From Variovorax guangxiensis (GTDB lineage Bacteria > Pseudomonadota > Gammaproteobacteria > Burkholderiales > Burkholderiaceae_C): a DNA stretch of 64,000 nucleotides. Below, in pieces: positions 34,518 through 46,418 of the stretch. Positions within the stretch are counted from its first letter, which is position 1. Every line of letters starts with the position of its first letter. Below the pieces are notes generated by a model. It saw only the letters and a program-made list of their open reading frames with translations, had not been told where the DNA came from and did no database searches. Where the stretch lies: positions 1 through 64,000 of the forward strand of contig NZ_RXFT01000020.1 in assembly GCF_003952165.1 (NCBI RefSeq), written 5' to 3'. Position numbers and translations under genes: made by a program.

Positions 34518-34617
34518 TCTCTTCCTGATCCCGCTCGGCCCTTGTGGCCTCGTGCGCCCCGAGCCGCCCGGCATCGGGCGATGCCACTACCATGGCGCAG
34601 GACCCTTCCTCCGCCCC

Positions 34618-35610
34618 ATGACACGCCGCCGACCGCTTCTGCAGCAACTGCTGGCCATGACCGCACTCGCGGCCACGGCATGGCCGCCGCGTGCGGCGAA
34701 GGCGCAGTTCGCCTACCCCTCCAAGCCCATCCGCTGGATCGTGCCCTACCAGGCCGGCGCGGGCACCGACATCGTCGCGCGCACCATCGGCGCCCAGCTG
34801 GCCATCGACTCGGGCCAGTCGGTGACCATCGAGAACCGCGGCGGTGGCAACACCGCGCTCGGCGCCATCGAGGCGGCGCGCGCCCCGGCCGACGGCTACA
34901 CGCTGCTGTCGGCCGACAGCGGCACGCTGGTGTTCAACCCGGCGCTGTACCGAAACCTCAGCTACAACCCCTCGCGCGACTTCGCGCCCGTCACCCTGCT
35001 CGGGCGGTTGCCGATGGTGCTGCTGGTGGGGCCGGCCAGCGGCGTGAAGGATGCGCGGGCCTTCATCGACGACGCGCGCGCCTTCCCCGGCAAGGTCAGC
35101 TACGCCTCGGCCGGCACCGGCAGCCCGCAGCACCTGTCGATGGAGCTGCTCGAACGAGAGGCTGGCCTGGAAATGGTGCACGTGCCGTATCGCAGCGCCG
35201 CGGCCGCGGTGGCCGACGTGGCCGGCGGCCAGCTGCCGGTGATCATGTGCGACCTGGCCGCCTCGCGCCGCTTCATCCCCGGCGGCAGGCTGCGCCCGCT
35301 GGCGGTGGCGAACTCCGTGCGCCTGGCGCAGCTGCCGCGCGTGCCCACCTTCGCCGAGATCGGCCTGCCGCGCGTGGAGGCCGCCGCGCTCCTGGGCCTG
35401 GTGGTGCCCGCCAACACGCCGGGCGAGATCGTCTCGCGGCTGCAGCAGTCGGTGGCCAGCGCCATCCACAACCCCGCAGTGCTGCGCAGGCTGGCCGAGT
35501 TCGGCGTGGAGCCCGCGGGCGACACGCCCTCGCGCTTCGCGGCGCTGCTGCAGGGCGAATCGGCGCGGTGGCATCCGCTGATCCGCGATCTGAATCTTTC
35601 GTTGGATTAG
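34618..35610 (+). CDS. Bug-family tripartite tricarboxylate receptor
   Basis: The 330-residue exported solute receptor has a signal peptide ending RAAKA (about residue 29). The Bug motif follows: YPSKPIRWIVPYQAGAGTDIVART, then VTIENRGGGNTALGAIEAARAPADGYTLL. ATG 34618 gives the arginine-rich signal start. Bug receptors bind carboxylates or amides and deliver them to TctAB permeases; none is adjacent here, which is common in Burkholderiales. Ligand cannot be deduced. Confidence 0.9.
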   Translation: MTRRRPLLQQLLAMTALAATAWPPRAAKAQFAYPSKPIRWIVPYQAGAGTDIVARTIGAQLAIDSGQSVTIENRGGGNTALGAIEAARAPADGYTLLSADSGTLVFNPALYRNLSYNPSRDFAPVTLLGRLPMVLLVGPASGVKDARAFIDDARAFPGKVSYASAGTGSPQHLSMELLEREAGLEMVHVPYRSAAAAVADVAGGQLPVIMCDLAASRRFIPGGRLRPLAVANSVRLAQLPRVPTFAEIGLPRVEAAALLGLVVPANTPGEIVSRLQQSVASAIHNPAVLRRLAEFGVEPAGDTPSRFAALLQGESARWHPLIRDLNLSLD

Positions 35611-35780: not shown

Positions 35781-36146
35781 ATGTCCGAGACCCACAAGGC
35801 GATTCTCGAAAAGGCCAACGCCGCCATCACCCAGGGCGACCACGAAGGATTTCTCGCGTTCTGCACCGACGACACGAAGTGGACCTTCGTCGGCGACAGA
35901 ACGCTCGACGGCAAGCAGGCGGTGCGCGAATGGATGGCGACCGCCTACCGGGAGCCGCCCCGGTTCGAGGTGCACCGCCTGATCGCCGACGGCGACTTTC
36001 TCGCGGCCCTTGGCGAGATCACGCTGAAGGACGAGACAGGCAAGGCGACCCGCCATGCGTACTGCGATGTCTGGCGCTTTCGCGACGGCCGGCTGGCCGA
36101 GCTGCAGGCCTTCGTCGTCGAAGCCCGCCCGCAGGCCCAGGACTGA
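35781..36146 (+). CDS. NTF2-like/SnoaL-family protein
   Basis: The 121-residue cytoplasmic protein fits the NTF2-like cone fold: helix AILEKANAAITQGDHEGFLAFC, then KWTFVGDRTLDGKQAVREWM and strands LIADGDFLAALGEITL and YCDVWRFRDGRLAELQAFVVE. Members include isomerases, ketosteroid-like enzymes and ligand-binding proteins. Candidate catalytic acids are present but not diagnostic. The ATG follows AGGAG 11 nt upstream. The gene is separate from the Bug gene by 170 nt and convergent to the glycosyltransferase operon. Confidence 0.8.
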   Translation: MSETHKAILEKANAAITQGDHEGFLAFCTDDTKWTFVGDRTLDGKQAVREWMATAYREPPRFEVHRLIADGDFLAALGEITLKDETGKATRHAYCDVWRFRDGRLAELQAFVVEARPQAQD

Positions 36147-36153
36147 GGGCCGC

Positions 36154-37281
36154 CTACCGCTGCGCGTTGGCCGCGGCAAGCCCGTAAAGCAGCCCGACCC
36201 ATTGCCGGAGCCGCTCGATGGCCGCCTGCCGGCCATCGGCATTGCGCGCTGCGCCATCGGCAGATGCCGCGAGCAGTTCCTCCGCCGCGCCCGCCACCGC
36301 CCGCGCGAACTTCGGTGCATCGCCGCGCCACACCACCACCCGGTGCGCCAGCCCCAGCTGCGCCGCGCGGCCCGCGTTGATCGCCTGCTCGGGCTGGTCG
36401 GTGAGCAGCAGCAGGATCGGCTTGCGGTAGACCGCCGCGATCGACAGCGCCGCCATGCCCGGCGCCGAGACGATGAAGGCGCTGTGCGCGGCCGCCTCGA
36501 TCCAGTGCTCGTCGCGTGCGTGCCAATGCGGGCGATGCGCATAGCCTTCGCCGACGAGGTGCGCGGGCACGCCGGCGTCGGCGAGGCCCTGCTCGAGCCC
36601 GTCGGCCAGCGCCGGTTCCTGGAAGTGCGGGTTGAGGTAGACGGCCGCCACGCGCTGCCGCGTTGCATCGCCCCTGTCCACCGCATCGACCACCGCCACC
36701 GGTGTGGCCAGCCGGTGGCGGCCGTGTCCGTCGTGCTGCGGTTCGCCGTAGGCGAAGTCGTGCTCGATGCGCGCGAGGCTGCGGTCGATCTGCCAGGCCA
36801 CGATGCGGCCGAACACCCGGGCGACGAAGCCCGGCATGCGGCCGCTGAAGTTGGTTTCCAGCGCATGCCGCAGGCTCGCGCCGTACACGTGGACCACCTT
36901 GCGCCGCCAGATGGGCAGCCAGCCCATCAGCAGCAGCGCGGGGTGGAAGGAGTCGTTCACCACCAGGTCGGCATCGCGCAAGTGCGCGCGCAGGCGCCAC
37001 ACGTCTCGCAGCATGCGTTCGGGCCTGAACATGTACAGCGCCACGTTGCGGTCGGTCTCGCGGCGCAGCATGTTCTGCTGCGTGTCGAACTGCACCGCGT
37101 AGTGGCGCGAGAGCACCGGCGCGTCGATCCCGAAGCCGGCCAGGAAGCGCGCGCCTTCGTCGGAGGTGGTGAGCACGCGCACCTGCGCGCCAGCCTCGCG
37201 CAACGCATGCGTGCGCAGCTGGGCGCGCATCAGGTGGCCGCGCGCGTCCGCGGTCGCGAGGTAGAGGATGCGCGGCGGCAT
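36154..37281 (-). CDS. GT-B-type glycosyltransferase-like protein
   Basis: The 375-residue protein begins MPPRILYLATADARGHLMRAQ, an N-terminal GT-B Rossmann strand and loop. It has DLVVNDSFHPALLLMGWLP, and a C-terminal nucleotide-sugar-like segment (HSAFIVSAPGMAALSIAAVYRKPILLLLTDQPEQAINAGRAA at about 275-318) like the GT28/MurG donor-binding end. It starts 3 nt after the ferritin-like gene stop and is the last gene of a four-gene minus-strand operon. Transfer of a sugar to a lipid or glycan acceptor at the inner membrane is likely; acceptor and sugar are unknown. Confidence 0.75.
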   Translation of the reverse strand: MPPRILYLATADARGHLMRAQLRTHALREAGAQVRVLTTSDEGARFLAGFGIDAPVLSRHYAVQFDTQQNMLRRETDRNVALYMFRPERMLRDVWRLRAHLRDADLVVNDSFHPALLLMGWLPIWRRKVVHVYGASLRHALETNFSGRMPGFVARVFGRIVAWQIDRSLARIEHDFAYGEPQHDGHGRHRLATPVAVVDAVDRGDATRQRVAAVYLNPHFQEPALADGLEQGLADAGVPAHLVGEGYAHRPHWHARDEHWIEAAAHSAFIVSAPGMAALSIAAVYRKPILLLLTDQPEQAINAGRAAQLGLAHRVVVWRGDAPKFARAVAGAAEELLAASADGAARNADGRQAAIERLRQWVGLLYGLAAANAQR

Positions 37282-37284
37282 CGC

Positions 37285-38055
37285 TCAGGCGTGGTGCCGC
37301 ACCGGCGGTGCCGAGCCGGGGCGCAGGCGCAGCGCCACGCCGGCCAGCCACATGCCGAGCGCGCCGGTCACGCCGAAGCCGCGCTCGGTGTCGCGCACCT
37401 CGCGCATCACCCGCGCGAGCCGCTGCTGCTCGTGCGGCGCCACGCATCGCTGCAGCGTGTGGCTGCACAGCCGGATGTGGCGGTCCTCGTCGGCCATCAC
37501 GCGCGACAGCAGCGGATGCAGCGCGTGCTGCGGGCCGATCAGCGCGCAGTGGCGCTGCAGGATGCGCGAGGCCATCTGCTCGGCCGCGAGGCCGATGGCG
37601 TAGGCCGGCACCAGCCCGCCGTGCGCGAAGTGCGGCGCGTGGCGGCGGATCAGCGCCTGCCAGCGCGCGAGCTTGCGGCGGCTGAACCAGTCGGGCTGTG
37701 GCGCTTCTTCCGGCGACGCAGCGGCCTGCGCATTGCCGCCGCGCTCGACGATGGCCTGCGCGAACAGGCGCGCGTGCAGTTGCTCGTCGGCCAGGTGCTG
37801 GTCGAGCTGGCGCGCCAGCCACTCGGGCGGCGCGATGCGCAGTTCGCGCTGCAGGGCCTGCTCGGATGACTCCTCGCCCACCAGGTAGAAGCGCAGCAGC
37901 AGCATCTCGCCCTCGTTGCTCGCATGCAGCTGGCGCAGCGCGGCGCGCTTGACGTGATGCACCAGCCAGGCTTGCAGCGCGGGCCAGCCGCGCAGCCGCG
38001 GCGGCGAGAGGCAGTCGAAGCCGGGCGCGGTGCCGGATGCGGGTTCAGCGGCCAT
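37285..38055 (-). CDS. Ferritin-like diiron-carboxylate protein
   Basis: The 256-residue protein has a complete four-helix diiron ligand set: E48 or E50 in helix 1 (NEGEMLLLRFYLVG), ExxH at E91/H94 (LADEQLHARLF), E159 in helix 3 (GLAAEQMASRIL) and ExxH at E190/H193 (MADEDRHIRLC). This is the pattern of diiron oxygenases and ferritin-like proteins. It has no signal peptide. It overlaps the exported-protein gene by 11 nt and is 3 nt from a glycosyltransferase, so it is part of a glycan or glycolipid operon. A hydroxylase or oxidase acting on a lipid or sugar intermediate is a reasonable inference. Confidence 0.8.
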   Translation of the reverse strand: MAAEPASGTAPGFDCLSPPRLRGWPALQAWLVHHVKRAALRQLHASNEGEMLLLRFYLVGEESSEQALQRELRIAPPEWLARQLDQHLADEQLHARLFAQAIVERGGNAQAAASPEEAPQPDWFSRRKLARWQALIRRHAPHFAHGGLVPAYAIGLAAEQMASRILQRHCALIGPQHALHPLLSRVMADEDRHIRLCSHTLQRCVAPHEQQRLARVMREVRDTERGFGVTGALGMWLAGVALRLRPGSAPPVRHHA

Positions 38056-39055
38056 CGGCCTTTGTCTTCGCCGTCTGCGGCTGTTGCTGCTGCCAGCCCA
38101 GCACCAGCCCGATGAAGCTGTCCTGCAGGAAGGCGCGCGCGGCCGCGTCGGCACCCGCGAACTCGCGCTGCTGGCCGTCGTAGCGGATGTAGCCCTTGCC
38201 GTTGGCGGCGCCTAGAAGCAGCTTCTCGTTCTTGCGGAAGCCGCGCTGCAGCAGGGGCTGCAGCAGCGACTGCGATTCGAGCCCGTACAGGAACAGGTCG
38301 CGCTGTACCACCTGGCGCGGGATCTGGCCGCTGAGCGCCTGCAGCTCCAGCGTCCAGTTGCCCTGCTGCATCGCCTCCGCCAGGTCGCGGCCCTTGGCGC
38401 CCGGCGCGCGGAAACGCGCGCGCGCCACCGACTTCGAGGCGCGGCTCAGGCCCAGGCCGATGGTGATGTCGGCGTCCCTGGCGCCGTCGGCGCGGTTGTC
38501 GTCCACCTGCACGAAGACGTTGGCCAGCCGCGCGGCCAGCGATGGCCTGGCCAGCGCCTCGACGATCTGCTCGGGGGTGAGCATCACGCGTTCGGTGCTG
38601 GGCTCGTTCACCGTCACCTTGTACGGATCGATGCGGATGTCGTCGAACTCGCCGCTTACGGGCGAATGCGCATGGCTGCTCACCGACCACTCGGTGCCCG
38701 AACGGCTCAGCAGCGCATGGAAGGTCAGCGGCACGCGCTGGCCGTCGCGCGCGCGGCCCGAGCCCTGCAGCAGCACGTCGCCGACGATGGTTTTCTCGGG
38801 ATAGCTGCGGGTGCTGGCGAAGCGGATGGTGTGCGCCGCGGCGTCGAGCGCGGCGTGGGTGTCGGCGTCGTCCAGTGCGAGGCGGTTGCACTCGCTGCCG
38901 CCACCCGCGAGCGCCGCGAATGGGCAGCCGGCGTCGGACTTGAAGTTGAAGACGCCGCGGCCCGCGAAGTCGGCGGCACCAGCCAGCGTGAAGGCGCCCG
39001 CGAGCGCGAGGCCCATTGCCGTGCGGCGGACGGAAAGTGAAGAGAAGTTGCGCAT
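38045..39055 (-). CDS. Exported protein of a glycan operon, unknown function
   Basis: The 336-residue product has a signal peptide (SVRRTAMGLALAGAFTLAGA, cleavage about residue 27) and a periplasmic body. Features include GRGVFNFKSDAGCPFAALAGG with two cysteines (about 44 and 56) that may pair, VSGEFDDIRIDPYKVTV, and DADITIGLGLSRASKSVARARF. I recognise no family. It is between a family 2 glycosyltransferase and the ferritin-like gene, overlapping the latter by 11 nt. It may bind or process the operon's glycan product. Confidence 0.7.
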   Translation of the reverse strand: MRNFSSLSVRRTAMGLALAGAFTLAGAADFAGRGVFNFKSDAGCPFAALAGGGSECNRLALDDADTHAALDAAAHTIRFASTRSYPEKTIVGDVLLQGSGRARDGQRVPLTFHALLSRSGTEWSVSSHAHSPVSGEFDDIRIDPYKVTVNEPSTERVMLTPEQIVEALARPSLAARLANVFVQVDDNRADGARDADITIGLGLSRASKSVARARFRAPGAKGRDLAEAMQQGNWTLELQALSGQIPRQVVQRDLFLYGLESQSLLQPLLQRGFRKNEKLLLGAANGKGYIRYDGQQREFAGADAAARAFLQDSFIGLVLGWQQQQPQTAKTKADGR

Positions 39056-39104
39056 GGTCTTTGGTTGTTCTTCTTCTGCGGAAAGGAAAAAAGGCGGGGC
39101 TCGA

Positions 39105-40133
39105 TCAGGGCCGGTGATAAGACAGCGCCTGCGCATCGGCATTGGTGCGCCCGGTCGTGTGCCAGCCGATGCCGCGCGCGAACGCGCCCAGCATGTCGAC
39201 GGCCGAGAAACCGAGGATGAGCGCTACGCCCGCGAGCCAGCGCAGCCCGCGCAGCGGCGGCAGGTCCTGATGGTTCAGCGCCTTCATGCTGAAGCCCAGC
39301 CGCGTGAAGAGCACCGCCAGCGGCCCGATCGGGCCGCTCCTCGCGAGCCATTGCCAGCGCGGCGACACGTAGCTGCGCAGCAGGTGCGGCGTGAGCGAAT
39401 AGGTGTCCTGCCCGCGCATCCAGCGCAGTTTCAGCGCCTCGGCGCGCGTGTCGGGCAGGCGGTGCTCGGTGTGGGCCGCGGCCGCGTAGTGGATGGGCAC
39501 GCCCGCCGCCTTCAGCCGCATGCCGAGCACTTGGCAGTGCGCGCGGTAGACGCCGTCGAGCGCCTGGTAGCTGTGCGCCTCGAACACGTCGCGGCGGAAG
39601 GCCACGTTGTTCGCGTAGAAGTTGCTCGTGGCCCCCGCATGATCGGCGTTGGGGAAGTACATGAAGTCGATGGTGGTGAGGGCCGTGCCCACCACGTTGG
39701 CCGCATAGCTGGTGCGGCCGGCCACCACGGTGGGGGCATCGGCACCCTTGGTGAACGGCAGCAGCATCTGCAGCAGCCAGTCGTCGTCGGGCAGGCAATC
39801 GGCGTCGGCGAACACCACGTGCGTGCAGCGCTGCGCGTCGGTGGCCGCGAAGCCGGCGTTCTTGGCGTCGTAATAGCCGGTGCTCGTGTCGATGCGCACG
39901 AAGTCGATGGGGCGGCCGGCGAGCGCGCTCACGGCCTCGCAGGTGGCAGGGCTCAATCCGTCGTGCGTGATGACCACCTGCGCGAGCGCGCTCAGCGGCA
40001 GCTTCTGTTTCGCCAGCAGGGCGACGAGGCGTTGCAGGCTTTCGCCCGCCCTGGCCTCTGCATCGGCGCCGCCGCGCAGGTTGTTGGTCTCCAGGACCAG
40101 CGCGCAACGCGCGGCAACTTGATCGGGCATCAT
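39105..40133 (-). CDS. Family 2 glycosyltransferase
   Basis: The 342-residue GT-A enzyme shows ALVLETNNLRGG, the strand VVITHDGLSPATCEAV, FVRIDTSTGYYDAKNAGFAA, and the metal-binding DxD-type motif in VVFADADCLPDDDWL. A C-terminal membrane helix GLRWLAGVALILGFSAVDML anchors it. Downstream GHTE-type residues (AAHTEHRL) fit the catalytic region. ATG 40133 is chosen because AGGA lies 7 nt upstream; in-frame ATGs at 40154 and 40172 lack a ribosome site. It heads the four-gene operon and is divergent from UDP-glucose dehydrogenase 96 nt away. Confidence 0.87.
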   Translation of the reverse strand: MMPDQVAARCALVLETNNLRGGADAEARAGESLQRLVALLAKQKLPLSALAQVVITHDGLSPATCEAVSALAGRPIDFVRIDTSTGYYDAKNAGFAATDAQRCTHVVFADADCLPDDDWLLQMLLPFTKGADAPTVVAGRTSYAANVVGTALTTIDFMYFPNADHAGATSNFYANNVAFRRDVFEAHSYQALDGVYRAHCQVLGMRLKAAGVPIHYAAAAHTEHRLPDTRAEALKLRWMRGQDTYSLTPHLLRSYVSPRWQWLARSGPIGPLAVLFTRLGFSMKALNHQDLPPLRGLRWLAGVALILGFSAVDMLGAFARGIGWHTTGRTNADAQALSYHRP

Positions 40134-40229
40134 CGAATTTTCCTGTCCGGACATCGTTTTGAAGGCTTGCATCCTGCTTTTATCGCACAACCGCGCCCGC
40201 CACCAGTGCCGCACGCCATGGGGCCGTCC

Positions 40230-41576
40230 ATGAAGGTGACCATCTTCGGCGCGGGCTACGTGGGCCTGAGCTTCGCCGCCTGCCTGGCCGAGGCGGGCCA
40301 TGAGGTGCTCTGCGCGGACGCCGATCCGGCGCGCATCGAGGGCCTGCAGGGCGGCCGGATGCCGCTGCACGAGCCCGGCCTGGAAGCGCTGGTGGCCTCG
40401 GGCGTCGCGGCGGGCACGCTGCGCTTCACCGCCGACGAGCGCGCGGCCTGCGAGCATGGCGACCTGCTCTTCATCGTGGTGAACACGCCGGCCGATGCGC
40501 AGGGGCGGGTCGACCTGCGGCACGTCATCGCGGTGGCCGCCGCCATCGGGCGGCACCGCGACCGCGACGCGCTGGTGGTCTGCAAATCGACCGCGCCGGT
40601 GGGCACGGCCGCGCAAGTCGAGGCCGTGCTGGGCGGCGAGCTTGCGCAGCGTGGCGCGAGGCACCGCATCGCGGTGGCGGTGAACCCCGAGTTCCTGCGC
40701 GAAGGCTCGGCCGTGCGCGATTGCCGGCAGCCCGACCGCGTGGTGATCGGCAGCGAAGATCCATGGGCCATCGGGCTGCTGACCAGGCTCTACGCGCCTT
40801 TCATTCAAGACCCGCAAAGGCAGCTGCTCGTGATGGACCGCCGCTCGGCCGAGCTCGCCAAGTACGCGGCCAACGCGATGCTCGCCACCCGCATCAGCTT
40901 CATGAACGAGATGGCGCGCGTGGCCGAGCAGGCGGGCGCCGACATCGAGGCGGTTCGGCGCGGCATCGGTGCCGACCGGCGCATCGGGCCCGACTTCCTG
41001 CAGGCCGGCGTGGGCTATGGCGGCTCCTGCCTCGCGAAGGACGTGCGGGCGCTCACGCATGCGGCCGAACGTGCGGGCCATGCGCTGCGCATCCTTTCCG
41101 CCGTCGCTGCCACCAACCACGAGCAGAAAGGCAGGCTCTTCGAGCTGATGTCGCGGCACTTCGGCGGCACGCTCGCGGGCCGGACCATCGCCGTGTGGGG
41201 CCTGGCCTTCAAGGCCGACACCGACGACATGCGCGACGCGCCCAGCCTCGTGCTGCTGGAACGCCTGTGGGCGGCCGGCGCGCGCGTGCGGGCCTACGAC
41301 CCTGCCGCGATGCCGAATGCGCGCGGCATCGTCGGCGAGCGCGACGACATCCACTGGTGCACCACCGCGCAGGAGGCGCTGCAAGGAGCCGATGCGCTGG
41401 CCGTGGTCACCGAGTGGGAGGAGTTCCGGCGGCCCGACTTCGCGCAGCTCGCCGGCGAGTTGAACGCGCCGCCCACCATCTTCGACGGGCGCAATCTCTA
41501 CGATGCAGCGCAGGCCGAGTCGGCGGGCATCGCCTACTACGGCATCGGCCGGGGCCGGTCGTCAATGCTGCGCTGA
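40230..41576 (+). CDS. ugd: UDP-glucose 6-dehydrogenase
   Basis: The 448-residue enzyme oxidises UDP-glucose to UDP-glucuronate with two NAD. It starts MKVTIFGAGYVGLSFAACLA, the NAD-binding Rossmann signature. KSTAPVGTA and NPEFLREGSAV are family motifs, and catalytic C267 is in GYGGSCLAKD. In most relatives the last segment is GGSCFPKD, so L and A here are substitutions next to the cysteine. ATG 40230 has GGGG 6 nt upstream; an ATG 12 nt earlier is possible. It probably supplies a uronic-acid donor for the divergent glycosyltransferases. Its end overlaps the convergent CoA-transferase gene by 15 nt. Confidence 0.93.
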   Translation: MKVTIFGAGYVGLSFAACLAEAGHEVLCADADPARIEGLQGGRMPLHEPGLEALVASGVAAGTLRFTADERAACEHGDLLFIVVNTPADAQGRVDLRHVIAVAAAIGRHRDRDALVVCKSTAPVGTAAQVEAVLGGELAQRGARHRIAVAVNPEFLREGSAVRDCRQPDRVVIGSEDPWAIGLLTRLYAPFIQDPQRQLLVMDRRSAELAKYAANAMLATRISFMNEMARVAEQAGADIEAVRRGIGADRRIGPDFLQAGVGYGGSCLAKDVRALTHAAERAGHALRILSAVAATNHEQKGRLFELMSRHFGGTLAGRTIAVWGLAFKADTDDMRDAPSLVLLERLWAAGARVRAYDPAAMPNARGIVGERDDIHWCTTAQEALQGADALAVVTEWEEFRRPDFAQLAGELNAPPTIFDGRNLYDAAQAESAGIAYYGIGRGRSSMLR

Positions 41577-42704
41577 GTCTTCCGAAGGCACAAAGGCATC
41601 GCCCGGCGTGAGCGGCGCATGCCGGTAGCTGGCCGGTGTGCGGCTCAGCTTTACCGGTGCGCCTATGCCGCGGTAGCCGCCGGGCATCTCCACCACCATC
41701 TCGCGATGAAGCGTGTGCGGATGCTGCAGCGCTGCATCCACCGGCAGCACCGGCGCGGCGGGCACGCCGGCGGCCATGAGTTGATCGACCAGCGCGCGGC
41801 CATCGAAGGCGGCCATCGCGGCCTCGAGCCGCTGCTTGAGCTGCGCGCGATTCACCGAGCGCGAGCCGGCCGTGCGGAAGAGCGGGTCTTCAGCGAGTTC
41901 GGGCAAGCCGATGCAGCGGCACAGGCTCGCGAACTGCCGGTCGTTGCCCACCGCCACGAACACCGGGTCGGTGCCCGTGGCCAGCGCGTCGTAGGGATAG
42001 ATGTTCGGATGCGCGTTGCCGGTGCGGCGGGGCTCGGTGCCGTCCATGAACCAGTTGGCGGCATGCGGATGCAGCAGCGACAGGCCGCTGTCGTACAGCG
42101 CCGCCTCCACGAACTGGCCGCGGCCGCTGCGGTTGCGCTCCTGCAGCGCGAGCAGCACGCCGATCACCGCGTTGAGGCCGGTCACCATGTCCACTACCGG
42201 CAGGCCGACGCGCAGCGGGCCGCCGTCGGCCTCGCCGTTGATGCTCATGATGCCGGTCATGGCCTGCACGGCGGCGTCGTAGCCCGGCAGCGCGCCCAGC
42301 GGGCCGTCGGCGCCGAAGCCCGAGACGCGGCACCACACGAGGCGCGGGAAGCGCTTCGACAACTCCTCGTAGCCGATGCCCCAGCGTTCCATGGTGCCGG
42401 TCTTGAAGTTCTCGATCAGCACGTCGGCCTCGGCCACCAGCGCGAGCAGCGCCCCGCGGCCTTCCTCGGTCGAGAAGTCGAGGTGCTGCACGCGCTTGTT
42501 GCGGTTGAGCCCGTGGTAGTACGAGGCCACGCCTTCCCTGAAGGGCGGGCCCCAGGTGCGCGTGTCGTCGCCCTGGGGCGGCTCGACCTTGAGCACGTCG
42601 GCACCATGGTCGCCGAGGATCTGGCCGCAGTAGGGGCCGCCGAGGATGCGGGAGATGTCGAGTACGCGGATGCCGGCGAGGGCGCCCTTGGAGGCCTGGT
42701 TCAT
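41562..42704 (-). CDS. CaiB/BaiF family III CoA-transferase
   Basis: The 380-residue enzyme moves CoA between carboxylic acids. Family III features include LDISRILGGPYCGQILGDHGADVLKVE (14-41) and catalytic aspartate D172 in GLPVVDMVTGLNAV. Also visible is the RRTGNAHPNIYPYDALAT segment. It is 10 nt downstream of a Bug receptor and in line with an acyl-CoA dehydrogenase, all on the minus strand and divergent from a LysR gene. The set looks like a carboxylate uptake and activation module. The acid is unknown. Confidence 0.92.
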   Translation of the reverse strand: MNQASKGALAGIRVLDISRILGGPYCGQILGDHGADVLKVEPPQGDDTRTWGPPFREGVASYYHGLNRNKRVQHLDFSTEEGRGALLALVAEADVLIENFKTGTMERWGIGYEELSKRFPRLVWCRVSGFGADGPLGALPGYDAAVQAMTGIMSINGEADGGPLRVGLPVVDMVTGLNAVIGVLLALQERNRSGRGQFVEAALYDSGLSLLHPHAANWFMDGTEPRRTGNAHPNIYPYDALATGTDPVFVAVGNDRQFASLCRCIGLPELAEDPLFRTAGSRSVNRAQLKQRLEAAMAAFDGRALVDQLMAAGVPAAPVLPVDAALQHPHTLHREMVVEMPGGYRGIGAPVKLSRTPASYRHAPLTPGDAFVPSEDSAQH

Positions 42705-42714
42705 TTCGGTGTTC

Positions 42715-43692
42715 TCAATCGAGCTGCGCGCCGGACTTCTTCACGACGTCCTTCCACTTCACCGATTCGCCAGCGATGAACTGCCCGAGCTTCTGCGGCG
42801 ATGTATCGGCCGGCACTTCGAGGCCCTGCGCCGCGAACATCTGCTTCACCTTCGGCGAATTCAGCACCTCGGCGAACGCATGGTTGAGCTTGTTCACGCG
42901 GTCGGCGGGCGTGCCGGCCGGCGCGACGATGCCGAAGAACACGCTCACGTCGTAGCCCTTGTAGCCCTGCTCGGAAATCGTCGGCACGTCGGGCAGTGCC
43001 TGCGAGCGCGCCACGGTGGCCACGCCCAGCGCGCGCAGCTTGCCGGCCTTGACGTAGGGCAGCGCGGTGAGGATGTCGGTGAAGGTCATGCTGACCTGGT
43101 TGCCCAGCAAGTCGTTGAGCGCGGGGCCCGTGCCCTTGTAGGGAATGTGCTGCAGGTCGGTGCCCGCCACCGAATTGAAGAGCACCCCCGCGAGGTGCGA
43201 CGAGGCGCCGTTGCCCGACGAGGCATAGCTGAGCTTGCCCGGGTTGGCCTTGGCGTAGGCCACCAGCTCCTGCACGTTCTTCACCGGCAGCGTGGGGTTG
43301 ACCACCAGGATGTTCGGCAGGTAGCCGACCTGGATCACCGGCGCGAAGCTCTTCACCGGGTCGTAGTTGATCTTGCGGTACAGGCTCGAATTGATGGCCA
43401 GTGGGCCCGAGGTACCGAACAGCAGCGTGTGGCCGTCGGCCTCGGCGCGCGCCACGTACTCGGCGCCGATGTTGCCGCCGGCGCCCGCGCGGTTCTCCAC
43501 GATCATGGGCTGGCCGAGGCGGTCCTTCATCTCGGCGGCGAGCGTGCGCGCCATCGCGTCGGTCGGCCCGCCGGGCGGGAAGGGCACGACCAGCATCAGG
43601 GGCTTGGAGGGAAAGGCATCGGCCGCTTGCGCAGCGGGCATGGCCGCCATCAGCGAGGCGCATGCGGCCAGCAGGAAGGTGAAGCGTTTCAA
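42715..43692 (-). CDS. Bug-family tripartite tricarboxylate receptor
   Basis: The 325-residue exported receptor has signal peptide FTFLLAACASLMAAMPAAQA and the Bug motif YPSKPLMLVVPFPPGGPTDAMART-like start (here DAFPSKPLMLVVPFPPGG). NRAGAGGNIGAEYVARAEADGHTLLFG follows. The start is TTG 43692, preceded by GGAG 7 nt upstream; no ATG or GTG fits the signal peptide. It sits between the acyl-CoA dehydrogenase and CoA-transferase genes, so it probably captures the acid that they process. Confidence 0.9.
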   Translation of the reverse strand: MKRFTFLLAACASLMAAMPAAQAADAFPSKPLMLVVPFPPGGPTDAMARTLAAEMKDRLGQPMIVENRAGAGGNIGAEYVARAEADGHTLLFGTSGPLAINSSLYRKINYDPVKSFAPVIQVGYLPNILVVNPTLPVKNVQELVAYAKANPGKLSYASSGNGASSHLAGVLFNSVAGTDLQHIPYKGTGPALNDLLGNQVSMTFTDILTALPYVKAGKLRALGVATVARSQALPDVPTISEQGYKGYDVSVFFGIVAPAGTPADRVNKLNHAFAEVLNSPKVKQMFAAQGLEVPADTSPQKLGQFIAGESVKWKDVVKKSGAQLD

Positions 43693-43723
43693 GGGTGTCT
43701 CCGTTTTATTGAAAGAAGAGGGC

Positions 43724-45415
43724 TCAGGCGGGCACCGCCGCCGACGAGGCCGCCGCGGCGTTCCAGTCCGCCGGCATCGCGTCGGGCGAGAGCGGATCGC
43801 GCGGCAGCACGCGGTGCAGCAGCACCAGCTGCGCCCAGCGCAGGCGCGCCGTGGAGCCGCCGCGCGCGGCCTCCCAGGCCATGGCGATGGCGCTGGTGCA
43901 GTGGTAGAGGGCGGAGGCGGCCTGGCGCGCGAGCACGTCGCCGCCTTCGCGTGCGGCGGTCTCGGTGAGCGCGGCGGCACGGTCCAGCGCGTCGCGCAGG
44001 GCCTTGGCGAAGGCGGGAGCCAGCGCCGCATCTGCAAGCAGCTTCTCGCAGTGCGCGCGCAGCACCGGCAGCGAGCCTTCGCGCTTCACCGCGCGGATCA
44101 CGTCCAGCGCCACGATGTTGCTCGTACCTTCCCAGATCGATCCCAGGTGGGCGTCGCGCACGAGCCGCGCGTCGCTCCATTCCTCGATGTAGCCGCAGCC
44201 GCCGCGCACCTCCATCGCGTCGCCCGTGACCTTGCGCGCATCCCGGCAGGCGCGGAACTTGATGAGCGGCGTGAGGATGCGCAGCAGCGCGTACGCATCG
44301 GGCTCGCCCGCGTCGGAGCGCGCGAGCGCCAGCGCCGTCTGGCACACCATGGTGCGGGCCTGTTCGGCGGGCAGGCGCAGCTTGTCGAGCTGGCGCTGCA
44401 TCAGCGGCATCTGCTCCAGCGTGCGGCCGAAGGCGCGGCGCTCGGATGCGATGAACTCGGCCTCGGCCACCGCGCGGCGCATCAGGCCGGCGGCGCGCAC
44501 GCCGTTCGACAGGCGCGAGTTGTTGACCATGTCGGCCATCTGCACGAAGCCGCGGCCTTCCTCGCCCACCAGCCAGGCGGTGGCGCCTTCGAGGCGGATC
44601 TCGCCGCTGGCCATGGAGCGCGTGCCGAGCTTGTCCTTCAGCCGGATGATGCGGTAGCTGTTGAGGCTGCCGTCGTCGAGCCGGCGCGGCAGCAGGAAGA
44701 GCGACACGCCCTTCATGCCCTGCGGGCCGTCATCGGCGCGCGCGAGCACCATCGCGAAGTCGGCGTCGGGGTTGGAGCAGAACCACTTGTCGCCCGTGAG
44801 GCGCCAGCTGCCGTCCGATTCGCGGCGGGCCAGCGTGGCGGTGGCGGCGATGTCGGAGCCGGCGGCCTGTTCGGTCATGAACATCGCGCCCTGCGCGAGT
44901 TCGTCGAAGTCGAGCGAGGTGAGGCGCGGCAGGTATCTGGCGACCAGTTCCGGGCTGCCAAACTTCTTCAGCGTGCGCGTGAGCGAGTCGGTCATCGACA
45001 CCGGGCAGCACAGGCCGAACTCCGCCTGCACGAACAGGTAGGTCAGCACGTACTTGACCAGCGGCGGCATCCTGCCCTTCCAGCCCAGCGTGTCGTCACG
45101 GTGCGAGATGGCGGCCAGGCCGAATTCGGCGAGCGCGAGGCGCTCCATTTCCACGTAGGCGGGGTGCTTGACGATCTTCTGCTCGTCCAGGCCGGTGCGC
45201 GTGCGTTGCTTCAGCACGGGCGGGTTGCGGTCGGCGGTGCCGGCCAGCTCGTCGATCAGGCCGCCCGCGAGGCCGCCCAGGCGCTCGAAGTGCGGCTGCA
45301 TGTGGCGGCGCAGGTCGTCGGGCAGGTAGAGCGCGAGCAGCGCGTGCAGCTCGGCGTCGGTGGTGAAGAGGTTCTGGCCGTGGCGATCGGGGATCGGATG
45401 GGCGTGCTCTGCCAT
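43724..45415 (-). CDS. Acyl-CoA dehydrogenase, AidB-like
   Basis: The 563-residue flavoenzyme has an N-terminal helical extension like AidB and other long-chain ACADs. The FAD-binding signature GAMFMTEQAAGSDIAATATLARR and KWFCSNPDADFAMVLAR are visible. The C-terminal FACE segment GCGYIEEWSDARLVRDAHLGSIWEGTSNI includes the region that normally bears the FAD-contacting arginine. ATG 45415 has GGAG 8 nt upstream and is preferred to an in-frame ATG 102 nt earlier that would overlap the lysR start region. It leads the acyl-CoA module. Confidence 0.92.
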   Translation of the reverse strand: MAEHAHPIPDRHGQNLFTTDAELHALLALYLPDDLRRHMQPHFERLGGLAGGLIDELAGTADRNPPVLKQRTRTGLDEQKIVKHPAYVEMERLALAEFGLAAISHRDDTLGWKGRMPPLVKYVLTYLFVQAEFGLCCPVSMTDSLTRTLKKFGSPELVARYLPRLTSLDFDELAQGAMFMTEQAAGSDIAATATLARRESDGSWRLTGDKWFCSNPDADFAMVLARADDGPQGMKGVSLFLLPRRLDDGSLNSYRIIRLKDKLGTRSMASGEIRLEGATAWLVGEEGRGFVQMADMVNNSRLSNGVRAAGLMRRAVAEAEFIASERRAFGRTLEQMPLMQRQLDKLRLPAEQARTMVCQTALALARSDAGEPDAYALLRILTPLIKFRACRDARKVTGDAMEVRGGCGYIEEWSDARLVRDAHLGSIWEGTSNIVALDVIRAVKREGSLPVLRAHCEKLLADAALAPAFAKALRDALDRAAALTETAAREGGDVLARQAASALYHCTSAIAMAWEAARGGSTARLRWAQLVLLHRVLPRDPLSPDAMPADWNAAAASSAAVPA

Positions 45416-45479
45416 GCGCTTTGTCTCCTTGAGTCTCTGGTTTGGCGCATTGTTGAAGCCGGAACGATCCGTGTCTAAT

Positions 45480-45500
45480 ATCGATTTGGTCTTGTTCGAT
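45480..45500. promoter_or_regulatory. Candidate LysR operator of the acyl-CoA module
   Basis: ATCGA-N11-TCGAT, a perfect 5-bp dyad with the T-N11-A core of LysR boxes, lies 16 nt upstream of the lysR ATG and about 64 nt upstream of the dehydrogenase ATG. Confidence 0.65.
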
Positions 45501-45515
45501 TCGATCTGACTATCC

Positions 45516-46418
45516 ATGGAACTGCGTCACCTGCGCTATTTCTCCGTGCTCGCCGAGGAGCTGCACTTCGGGCGGGCGGCGCGGCGGCTGTCGATCTCGC
45601 AGCCGCCGCTGTCGGTGGCCATACGGCAGCTCGAAGACAACGTGGGCGCGCGCCTCTTCGAGCGCAACAGCAAGGAAGTACGGTTAACGCCCGCGGGCGA
45701 GGCGCTGCGGGTTTCGGCGCGCCGGTTGCTCCTGCAGGCCGAGGAGGCCGCCATCGAGGCGCGCGACGTGGCGCTGGGGTCGGCCGGGCGGCTACGCATC
45801 GGCTTCGTCGGCGCGATGCTGTACCGGGGCCTGCCGCAGGCGCTGCGCGCCTTCCAGGCGAAGCACCCGGCGGTGCGCATCACGCTGAGCGAACTCAATT
45901 CGGGCATGCAGGTCGCCGAGCTGCTGAACGACCGGCTCGACCTGGGCTTCGCCCATACGCACCGCGTGCCGGACGAGCTGCAGCACCGGCTGCTGCTGTC
46001 GGAGCCCTTCGTGGCCTGCTTGCCCGCCGGGCACGCATTGGCGCGCAAGCGCGTGCTGGCACCGGCCGACCTGCGCGAGCAGCCCTTCGTGCTGTTCTCG
46101 CGCGAGGTCTCGCCCGACTATCACGAGCGCATCCTGAGCATCTGCGCCGACGCGGGCTTCTTGCCCGAGGTACGGCACGAGGTGCGGCACTGGCTCGCGG
46201 TGGTCTCGTGGGTGTCGCAGGGGCTGGGCGTGGCGCTGGTGCCGCAGGCGATGCGGCATTCGGCCTTGCGCGGCGCGGTGTTCAGGCCGCTCGACAGGGC
46301 CGTGGCGCAGTCGGAGGCCTACGGCATCTGGCGCAGCGGGCCGGCCAATGTGCTGGTCGAGCGGCTGCTGGAAGGCGTGGCCGAAAGCCTCGCCGCCACC
46401 CGCGGCGATCAGGCGTAG
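45516..46418 (+). CDS. LysR-family transcriptional regulator of the acyl-CoA module
   Basis: The 300-residue regulator begins MELRHLRYFSVLAEELHFGR with the LysR helix-turn-helix through ERNSKEVRLTPAGEAL. The effector domain has GMQVAELLNDRLDLGFAHT. This start is typical of the BenM/CatM group that controls aromatic or carboxylate catabolism. It is divergent from acyl-CoA dehydrogenase over a 100-nt interval carrying an ATCGA-N11-TCGAT dyad. Its end overlaps the convergent kinase gene by 10 nt. Confidence 0.93.
   Translation: MELRHLRYFSVLAEELHFGRAARRLSISQPPLSVAIRQLEDNVGARLFERNSKEVRLTPAGEALRVSARRLLLQAEEAAIEARDVALGSAGRLRIGFVGAMLYRGLPQALRAFQAKHPAVRITLSELNSGMQVAELLNDRLDLGFAHTHRVPDELQHRLLLSEPFVACLPAGHALARKRVLAPADLREQPFVLFSREVSPDYHERILSICADAGFLPEVRHEVRHWLAVVSWVSQGLGVALVPQAMRHSALRGAVFRPLDRAVAQSEAYGIWRSGPANVLVERLLEGVAESLAATRGDQA

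Follow-up and report, generated by a model that had tools for sequence, protein, structure and literature searches.

What does a protein that carries the ligands of a diiron site do among genes for an exported protein and two glycosyltransferases? The question is raised by a locus of Variovorax guangxiensis (contig NZ_RXFT01000020.1, positions 1 to 64,000, the stretch of 64,000 nucleotides (nt) that was analysed and that we call the window; its genome, G000, measures 7.18 Mb). A first-pass annotation had described here an exported protein, a ferritin-like protein, a GT-B enzyme, a GT2 enzyme and a divergent ugd gene, and the open reading frames (ORFs) and their translations place all five where it had put them. 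We find that the genes for GT2, the exported protein (EXP), the ferritin-like protein (DII) and GT-B, which we refer to as the cassette, come and go together as a single unit, all or none, and that the gene set points to an oxidation step in surface glycolipid synthesis. The reading that we tentatively favour, at somewhat short of even chances, is that DII is a diiron oxygenase modifying an envelope glycolipid or lipid-linked saccharide, which both glycosyltransferases would make and which EXP would handle in the periplasm. The features are as follows.

39105-40133, minus strand: GT2 glycosyltransferase, 342 amino acids; matches PF00535; hydrophobic C-terminal segment
38045-39055, minus strand: EXP, exported protein, 336 amino acids; signal peptide by reading; C44 and C56 invariant; modelled C-terminal chalcone-isomerase/fatty-acid-binding fold
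37285-38055, minus strand: DII, ferritin-like protein by ligand conservation and model, 256 amino acids
36154-37281, minus strand: GT-B-like glycosyltransferase, 375 amino acids; weak TIGR00661 match; ordered with DII in 51 of 51 loci
40134-40229, no strand: divergent intergenic stretch between GT2 and ugd, 96 nt; no sigma-70 match
40230-41576, plus strand: ugd, UDP-glucose/GDP-mannose dehydrogenase family by its Pfam domains, 448 amino acids; sole match of its kind in the window's genome

Along the minus strand, GT2 and EXP are separated by 49 nt, EXP and DII overlap by 11 nt, and 3 nt lie between DII and GT-B; ugd, on the plus strand, begins 96 nt from the GT2 start and is divergent from the operon. 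DII likely starts with the ATG at 38055 and not with the GTG that opens the longest ORF at 38154. Since no sigma-70-type promoter was found within 36000-41700, the operon call rests on gene spacing and conservation, and 40134-40229 is the likely site of both promoters, on the GT2 side and on the ugd side.

How tightly are the four genes linked? A protein search recovered DII in 21 of 121 related genomes, its own included, all of one genus, and a scan of a genome collection gave 20 loci, 19 from Variovorax and one from Burkholderia stagnalis (54% identity). Among 249 genomes of the family of g133, 13 DII matches were seen; two are scraps of 38-39 residues, and the remaining 11, ten of them in g133 and one in g125, are full relatives. 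We take g133 to be Burkholderia, because DII of its ten loci is 73-81% identical to that of the B. stagnalis locus and because the neighbours YafJ (10/10) and AraC (9/10) are shared. Within g133, DII is present in 25 of 61 genomes, in one of them as a fragment at a contig end, and a TGA flagged in the DII match of genome G925 is the natural stop. In every one of the 51 DII-bearing loci examined (20 and 19 from Variovorax, 11 Burkholderia-type, one from g125), GT2, EXP, DII and GT-B follow each other in that order on one strand; these loci are not all independent, because the two Variovorax collections overlap in species. Among the culture-collection strains that carry the cassette is V. boronicumulans NBRC 103145 (L041). 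A profile search that recovers GT-B in the window's genome found it in none of 32 genomes chosen as DII-negative, and the proposed link between DII and the glycosyltransferases is well supported.

Wider searches were capped at 5 or 6 scored candidates for each genome, and the genomes were sampled from larger groups, so that distant or rare relatives may have escaped them. They returned DII in 2 of 399 genomes of the order (its own and a scrap of 33 residues scoring 19.4 bits) and in 3 of 398 of the phylum (its own and two partial matches with internal stops), GT-B in 1 of 321 genomes of the class and EXP in 1 of 379 of the order, in both cases its own. A tblastn search of plasmids found no relatives, and among the matches listed for the open-access literature there was no paper on the cassette or on DII.

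The case for a diiron site in DII begins with its candidate ligands, which are encoded at the following positions.

37873-37875, minus strand: candidate ligand E61
37783-37785, minus strand: candidate ligand E91
37774-37776, minus strand: candidate ligand H94
37579-37581, minus strand: candidate ligand E159
37486-37488, minus strand: candidate ligand E190
37477-37479, minus strand: candidate ligand H193
37795-37797, minus strand: possible seventh ligand H87

The full ferritin-like set that had been read from the sequence (E, ExxH, E, ExxH) holds throughout the family, since E61, E91xxH94, E159 and E190xxH193 are invariant in all 38 distinct DII sequences (the window's and 37 others, 52-100% identical to it), as are D90, D189 and H87. 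E61 is the better candidate on helix A, because E62 is replaced by D in one sequence. The two ExxH pairs presumably point to a ferritin-like ligand set over the heme-oxygenase-like diiron oxidases, the alternative on which the TenA matches of the model given below bear. The ratio of nonsynonymous to synonymous substitution rates (dN/dS) of DII is 0.15-0.22 in four of four Variovorax pairs, and across the cassette and ugd it ranges from 0.08 to 0.36 in four such pairs. The constant gene order, the dN/dS of DII and ligands that are invariant though only 79 of the 236 well-filled alignment columns are, together argue that the locus is more than a chance assembly.

The structure of DII was modelled from 17 sequences. 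At moderate confidence, the model puts the ligands on four helices, the arrangement on which the first-pass annotation had staked its claim: E61 on helix 47-72, E91 and H94 on 78-104, E159 on 148-173, and E190 and H193 on 180-204. In VIA-align, where helical bundles can score about Z 13 from arrangement alone, the best matches of the model are the aldehyde-deformylating-oxygenase-like 8fhc_A (Z 14.5, root-mean-square deviation (rmsd) 3.5, 190 residues aligned) and MiaE (6zmb_C; Z 14.3, rmsd 3.2, 182 aligned), with TenA proteins at Z 11-13 and bacterioferritins at Z 10.4-10.8. MiaE and the aldehyde-deformylating oxygenases are both ferritin-like diiron oxygenases; they are unlike DII in sequence (13-15% identity, with no Pfam or NCBIfam match of DII to either) and in gene setting. 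In Pfam, DII stays below every cut-off (given in brackets), with 25.7 (29.6) bits for AurF, 21.3 (24.5) for Ferritin and 18 (23.5) for COQ7. DII, EXP and GT-B pass no Pfam or NCBIfam cut-off and have no matches in PHROGs, and a sequence search of the PDB gave no convincing relative of DII, GT-B or GT2. By its ligands and its predicted structure, DII is thus a member of the ferritin-like diiron superfamily that falls outside AurF by score and by motif order and matches no named family above its cut-off. Its residues 226-244 are hydrophobic (mean hydropathy 1.26 over the 38 sequences), which suggests a possible contact with the membrane.

The comparison with AurF deserves a closer look. As described in excerpts from three papers (PMC12101540, PMC9478400, PMC6783550), the AurF group has seven ligands, three histidines and four carboxylates, with the extra histidine four residues ahead of the second ExxH glutamate and with two aspartates that stand before the ExxH glutamates and act as hydrogen-bond partners. 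AurF, CmlI and DnfA (PF11583) are the best Pfam match of DII and, going by these excerpts, share with it the three histidines, the four carboxylates and the two aspartates. They differ in the order of the motifs, since AurF carries ExxH first and HxxDExxH second, whereas H87-x-x-D90-E91-x-x-H94 lies in the first half and D189-E190-x-x-H193 in the second half of DII in 38 of 38 sequences, and the reverse order in none. This reversed order combined with an AurF-like ligand inventory seems to be new. The gathering score of PF11583 (29.6) is reached neither by the window's DII (25.7 bits) nor by those of B. stagnalis (22.3) and L072 (26.2). A circularly permuted AurF was considered and rejected: swapping the two halves lowers the AurF score in all three cases (to 19.6, 20.5 and 19.9, respectively), and circular permutation therefore does not explain DII; in the one control, the AurF-like protein of L043, the swap took the score from 37.8 to 28.7. 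CmlI stands at rank 7 of the Foldseek list for DII (E 0.46), and AurF and CmlI are missing from the best 50 VIA-align matches, which excludes nothing. The window's genome encodes two more AurF-like ferritin-like proteins (L043:1222-2460 and L045:1282-2139), neither of which, by eye, has the extra histidine in either half; the L043 gene comes after an ORF whose product, by reading, resembles a substrate-binding protein.

What would such a site act on? In 12 of 12 Burkholderia-type loci, the four genes are followed by a PAP2 phosphatase and a fatty-acid desaturase (families by library match). EXP, whose cysteines C44 and C56 are invariant in 17 of 17 sequences, was modelled with a predicted local distance difference test (pLDDT) score of 69.9, and the first 25 of 50 VIA-align matches of its C-terminal domain are chalcone isomerases or plant fatty-acid-binding proteins (Z 8.1-7.0), followed by a chain of the FtsHi complex (Z 6.9) and, from Z 4.6, by unrelated single entries. 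We read the C-terminal domain of EXP as a likely lipid-binding fold. It would resemble the plant proteins AtFAP1 and AtFAP3, which bind fatty acids with a chalcone-isomerase fold; EXP is unlike them in being exported, in having an extra N-terminal beta domain, in its identity of 11-12% and in matching no Pfam family. Taken together, the Burkholderia-type neighbours and the EXP model make the lipid side somewhat stronger than it had appeared from sequence alone. The desaturase was also considered as a hidden partner of the Variovorax cassette and rejected, as no orthologue was seen among the genomes compared: matches of 29-36% occur in six other cassette-bearing genomes (G059, G050, G033, G067, G066, G014) and of 34-37% also in the cassette-free G002, and there are none in the cassette-free G001, G005 and G013.

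About 4-6 kb upstream of the cassette, 6 of 11 Burkholderia-type stretches carry an oxoamine-synthase-like gene (Pfam Aminotran_1_2; L084:18184-19512). In L084, the one locus read further, it is preceded by an ORF of 2544 amino acids (L084:9571-17205) that by reading resembles a type I polyketide synthase, and this pair could make a long-chain aminoketone. Being present in only 6 of the 11 stretches, the polyketide synthase and oxoamine synthase were set aside as part of the cassette.

On the sugar side, only ugd and GT2 among the five genes pass family-library cut-offs. GT2 scores 38.4 bits against a PF00535 cut-off of 23.3, and its DAD motif is invariant in four of four aligned sequences. 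It shares the PF00535-type domain with MftF and EpsD and is unlike them in scoring 38.6 and 34.4 bits, far below the NCBIfam cut-offs of 280 and 370. GT-B matches the MJ1255/VC2487 glycosyltransferases (TIGR00661) with 20.5 bits over residues 265-313, short of the cut-off of 195.9. The ugd product exceeds the cut-off in all three UDP-glucose/GDP-mannose dehydrogenase Pfam domains (180.2, 121.1 and 106 bits), and the gene adjoining the cassette is the only ugd match in G000 and in G059. A ugd of the cassette type, 73-100% conserved, is found in four of four cassette-bearing Variovorax genomes tested and in none of eight cassette-free ones, where ugd matches reach at most 54%. It lies beside the cassette in 18 of the 19 long Variovorax loci, the one without a match beside GT2 being L028 (Variovorax sp. 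Root411), which offers a natural test of the need for ugd; in none of the 12 Burkholderia-type loci does the stretch examined contain a ugd match. From this distribution, a uronate sugar is likely in the Variovorax product. The ugd next to the cassette is a distinct type that tracks it in Variovorax; the UDP-glucuronate link made in the first-pass annotation is weaker than claimed, given L028 and the Burkholderia-type loci.

We propose that the cassette is one functional unit for making and handling a glycolipid of the cell envelope or a lipid-linked saccharide. Its two glycosyltransferases would assemble a short glycan on a membrane lipid at the cytoplasmic side, in Variovorax with a uronate donor probably supplied by the divergent ugd. 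DII, as a putative iron-binding cytoplasmic oxygenase perhaps held at the membrane by its hydrophobic tail, would use O2, and two electrons supplied by a reductase, for hydroxylation or another oxidation of the intermediate, be it lipid or glycan. EXP may then bind the product in the periplasm via its fatty-acid-binding-like domain and carry or present it. Of this picture, the genes with their order and linkage, the conserved ligands and the families of GT2 and ugd are shown by the data; the four-helix bundle of DII and the fold of EXP come from models, and the binding of iron, the oxygenase chemistry, the substrate, the contact with the membrane and the direction of the pathway are inferred.

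Several observations weigh against this proposal. Confidence in the DII model is no more than moderate (mean pLDDT 66.4, predicted template modelling score 0.61), helix A of the model reaches a pLDDT of only about 58-60, and Foldseek gave no match for it at E <= 0.001 and a list that opens with TenA proteins; the Z scores that bundles attain by arrangement have to be counted here as well. For EXP, the best C-terminal match (4doo_A; rmsd 3.1, 118 residues aligned) has a borderline Z of 8.1, and plain Foldseek is led by sliding clamps (probability <=0.13), and places a chalcone isomerase 43rd (probability 0.60). None of the 19 long Variovorax loci has PAP2 or the desaturase, and the window's genome holds no relative of the Burkholderia-type desaturase. 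Finally, the cassette contains no reductase or ferredoxin gene, and the Burkholderia-type loci lack ugd.

Other explanations have to be weighed against the same evidence. DII could be an AurF-like N-oxygenase that converts an amino group, carried by a sugar or by a lipid head group, to a hydroxylamino, nitroso or nitro group, as the invariant HxxDExxH and DExxH motifs, the inventory of three histidines, four carboxylates and two aspartates that the excerpts give for AurF, and the rank of AurF as best Pfam match, though under the cut-off, would have it. We consider this unlikely, with the cut-off missed, the third histidine in the opposite half when compared with the excerpted AurF site, and neither an aminotransferase nor an amino-sugar gene in the cassette. 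Slightly more doubtful is a role of the unit in making or modifying an exported polysaccharide, with DII oxidising a sugar and the lipid links being incidental. Two glycosyltransferases with a ugd that tracks them in Variovorax would suit it, and GT2 weakly matches exopolysaccharide enzymes in NCBIfam; however, reading the ORFs at 31-46 kb by eye, with no profile scan, brought up no gene for a polymerase, a flippase or export, the EXP model looks lipid-binding, and PAP2 and desaturase accompany the Burkholderia-type loci.

The ligand pattern of DII is also common to ferritins and rubrerythrin-type proteins, bacterioferritins are among its VIA-align matches, and the cassette brings no reductase, all of which would fit a protein that is no oxygenase and that binds iron, scavenges peroxide or has a structural part, guarding the pathway or acting as its scaffold. 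We give this little credence, as DII, at 256 amino acids with flanking helices, is unlike ferritin cages, strictly co-occurs with glycosyltransferases and finds its closest folds in VIA-align among oxygenases. Least probable, in our view, is that the product is a small glycosylated natural product, with DII as a tailoring enzyme, instead of an envelope lipid. The patchy spread of DII among its relatives and within g133 speaks for it, as do the oxoamine-synthase-like gene and, in L084, the polyketide-synthase-like ORF beside it; yet five of the 11 stretches lack this gene (5.5-6.5 kb upstream covered), an opposite-strand gene lies between it and the cassette, the Variovorax cassette has no scaffold-making gene, and EXP is exported and looks lipid-binding in its model.

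Within the favoured reading of DII as an envelope glycolipid oxygenase, a bolder version can be put forward, which we regard as improbable: DII might be the founder of a new diiron oxygenase class, in which a three-histidine site like that of AurF draws its extra histidine from the opposite half of the bundle, and might install an oxidised group (e.g., N-O or hydroxyl) on a uronate-bearing envelope glycolipid that EXP carries across the periplasm. If the glycolipid reading is true, an O2-dependent diiron step would be added to bacterial glycolipid assembly, and the four genes would serve as a marker for locating the product. The reversed motif order, for its part, bears on whether AurF-like three-histidine sites arose more than once.

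The surroundings of the cassette differ between loci. In the window, the region lies between two ORFs resembling tripartite tricarboxylate (Bug) receptors (34552-35610 and 42715-44037), and a CoA-transferase-like ORF (41562-42704) and an acyl-CoA-dehydrogenase-like ORF (43724-45517) lie nearby, all by reading. In one Burkholderia-type genome, the ORFs on the opposite strand downstream of the cassette (L064:12570-17463) read like CpoB, Pal, TolB, TolA, TolR and TolQ, and the cassette thus adjoins tol-pal there.

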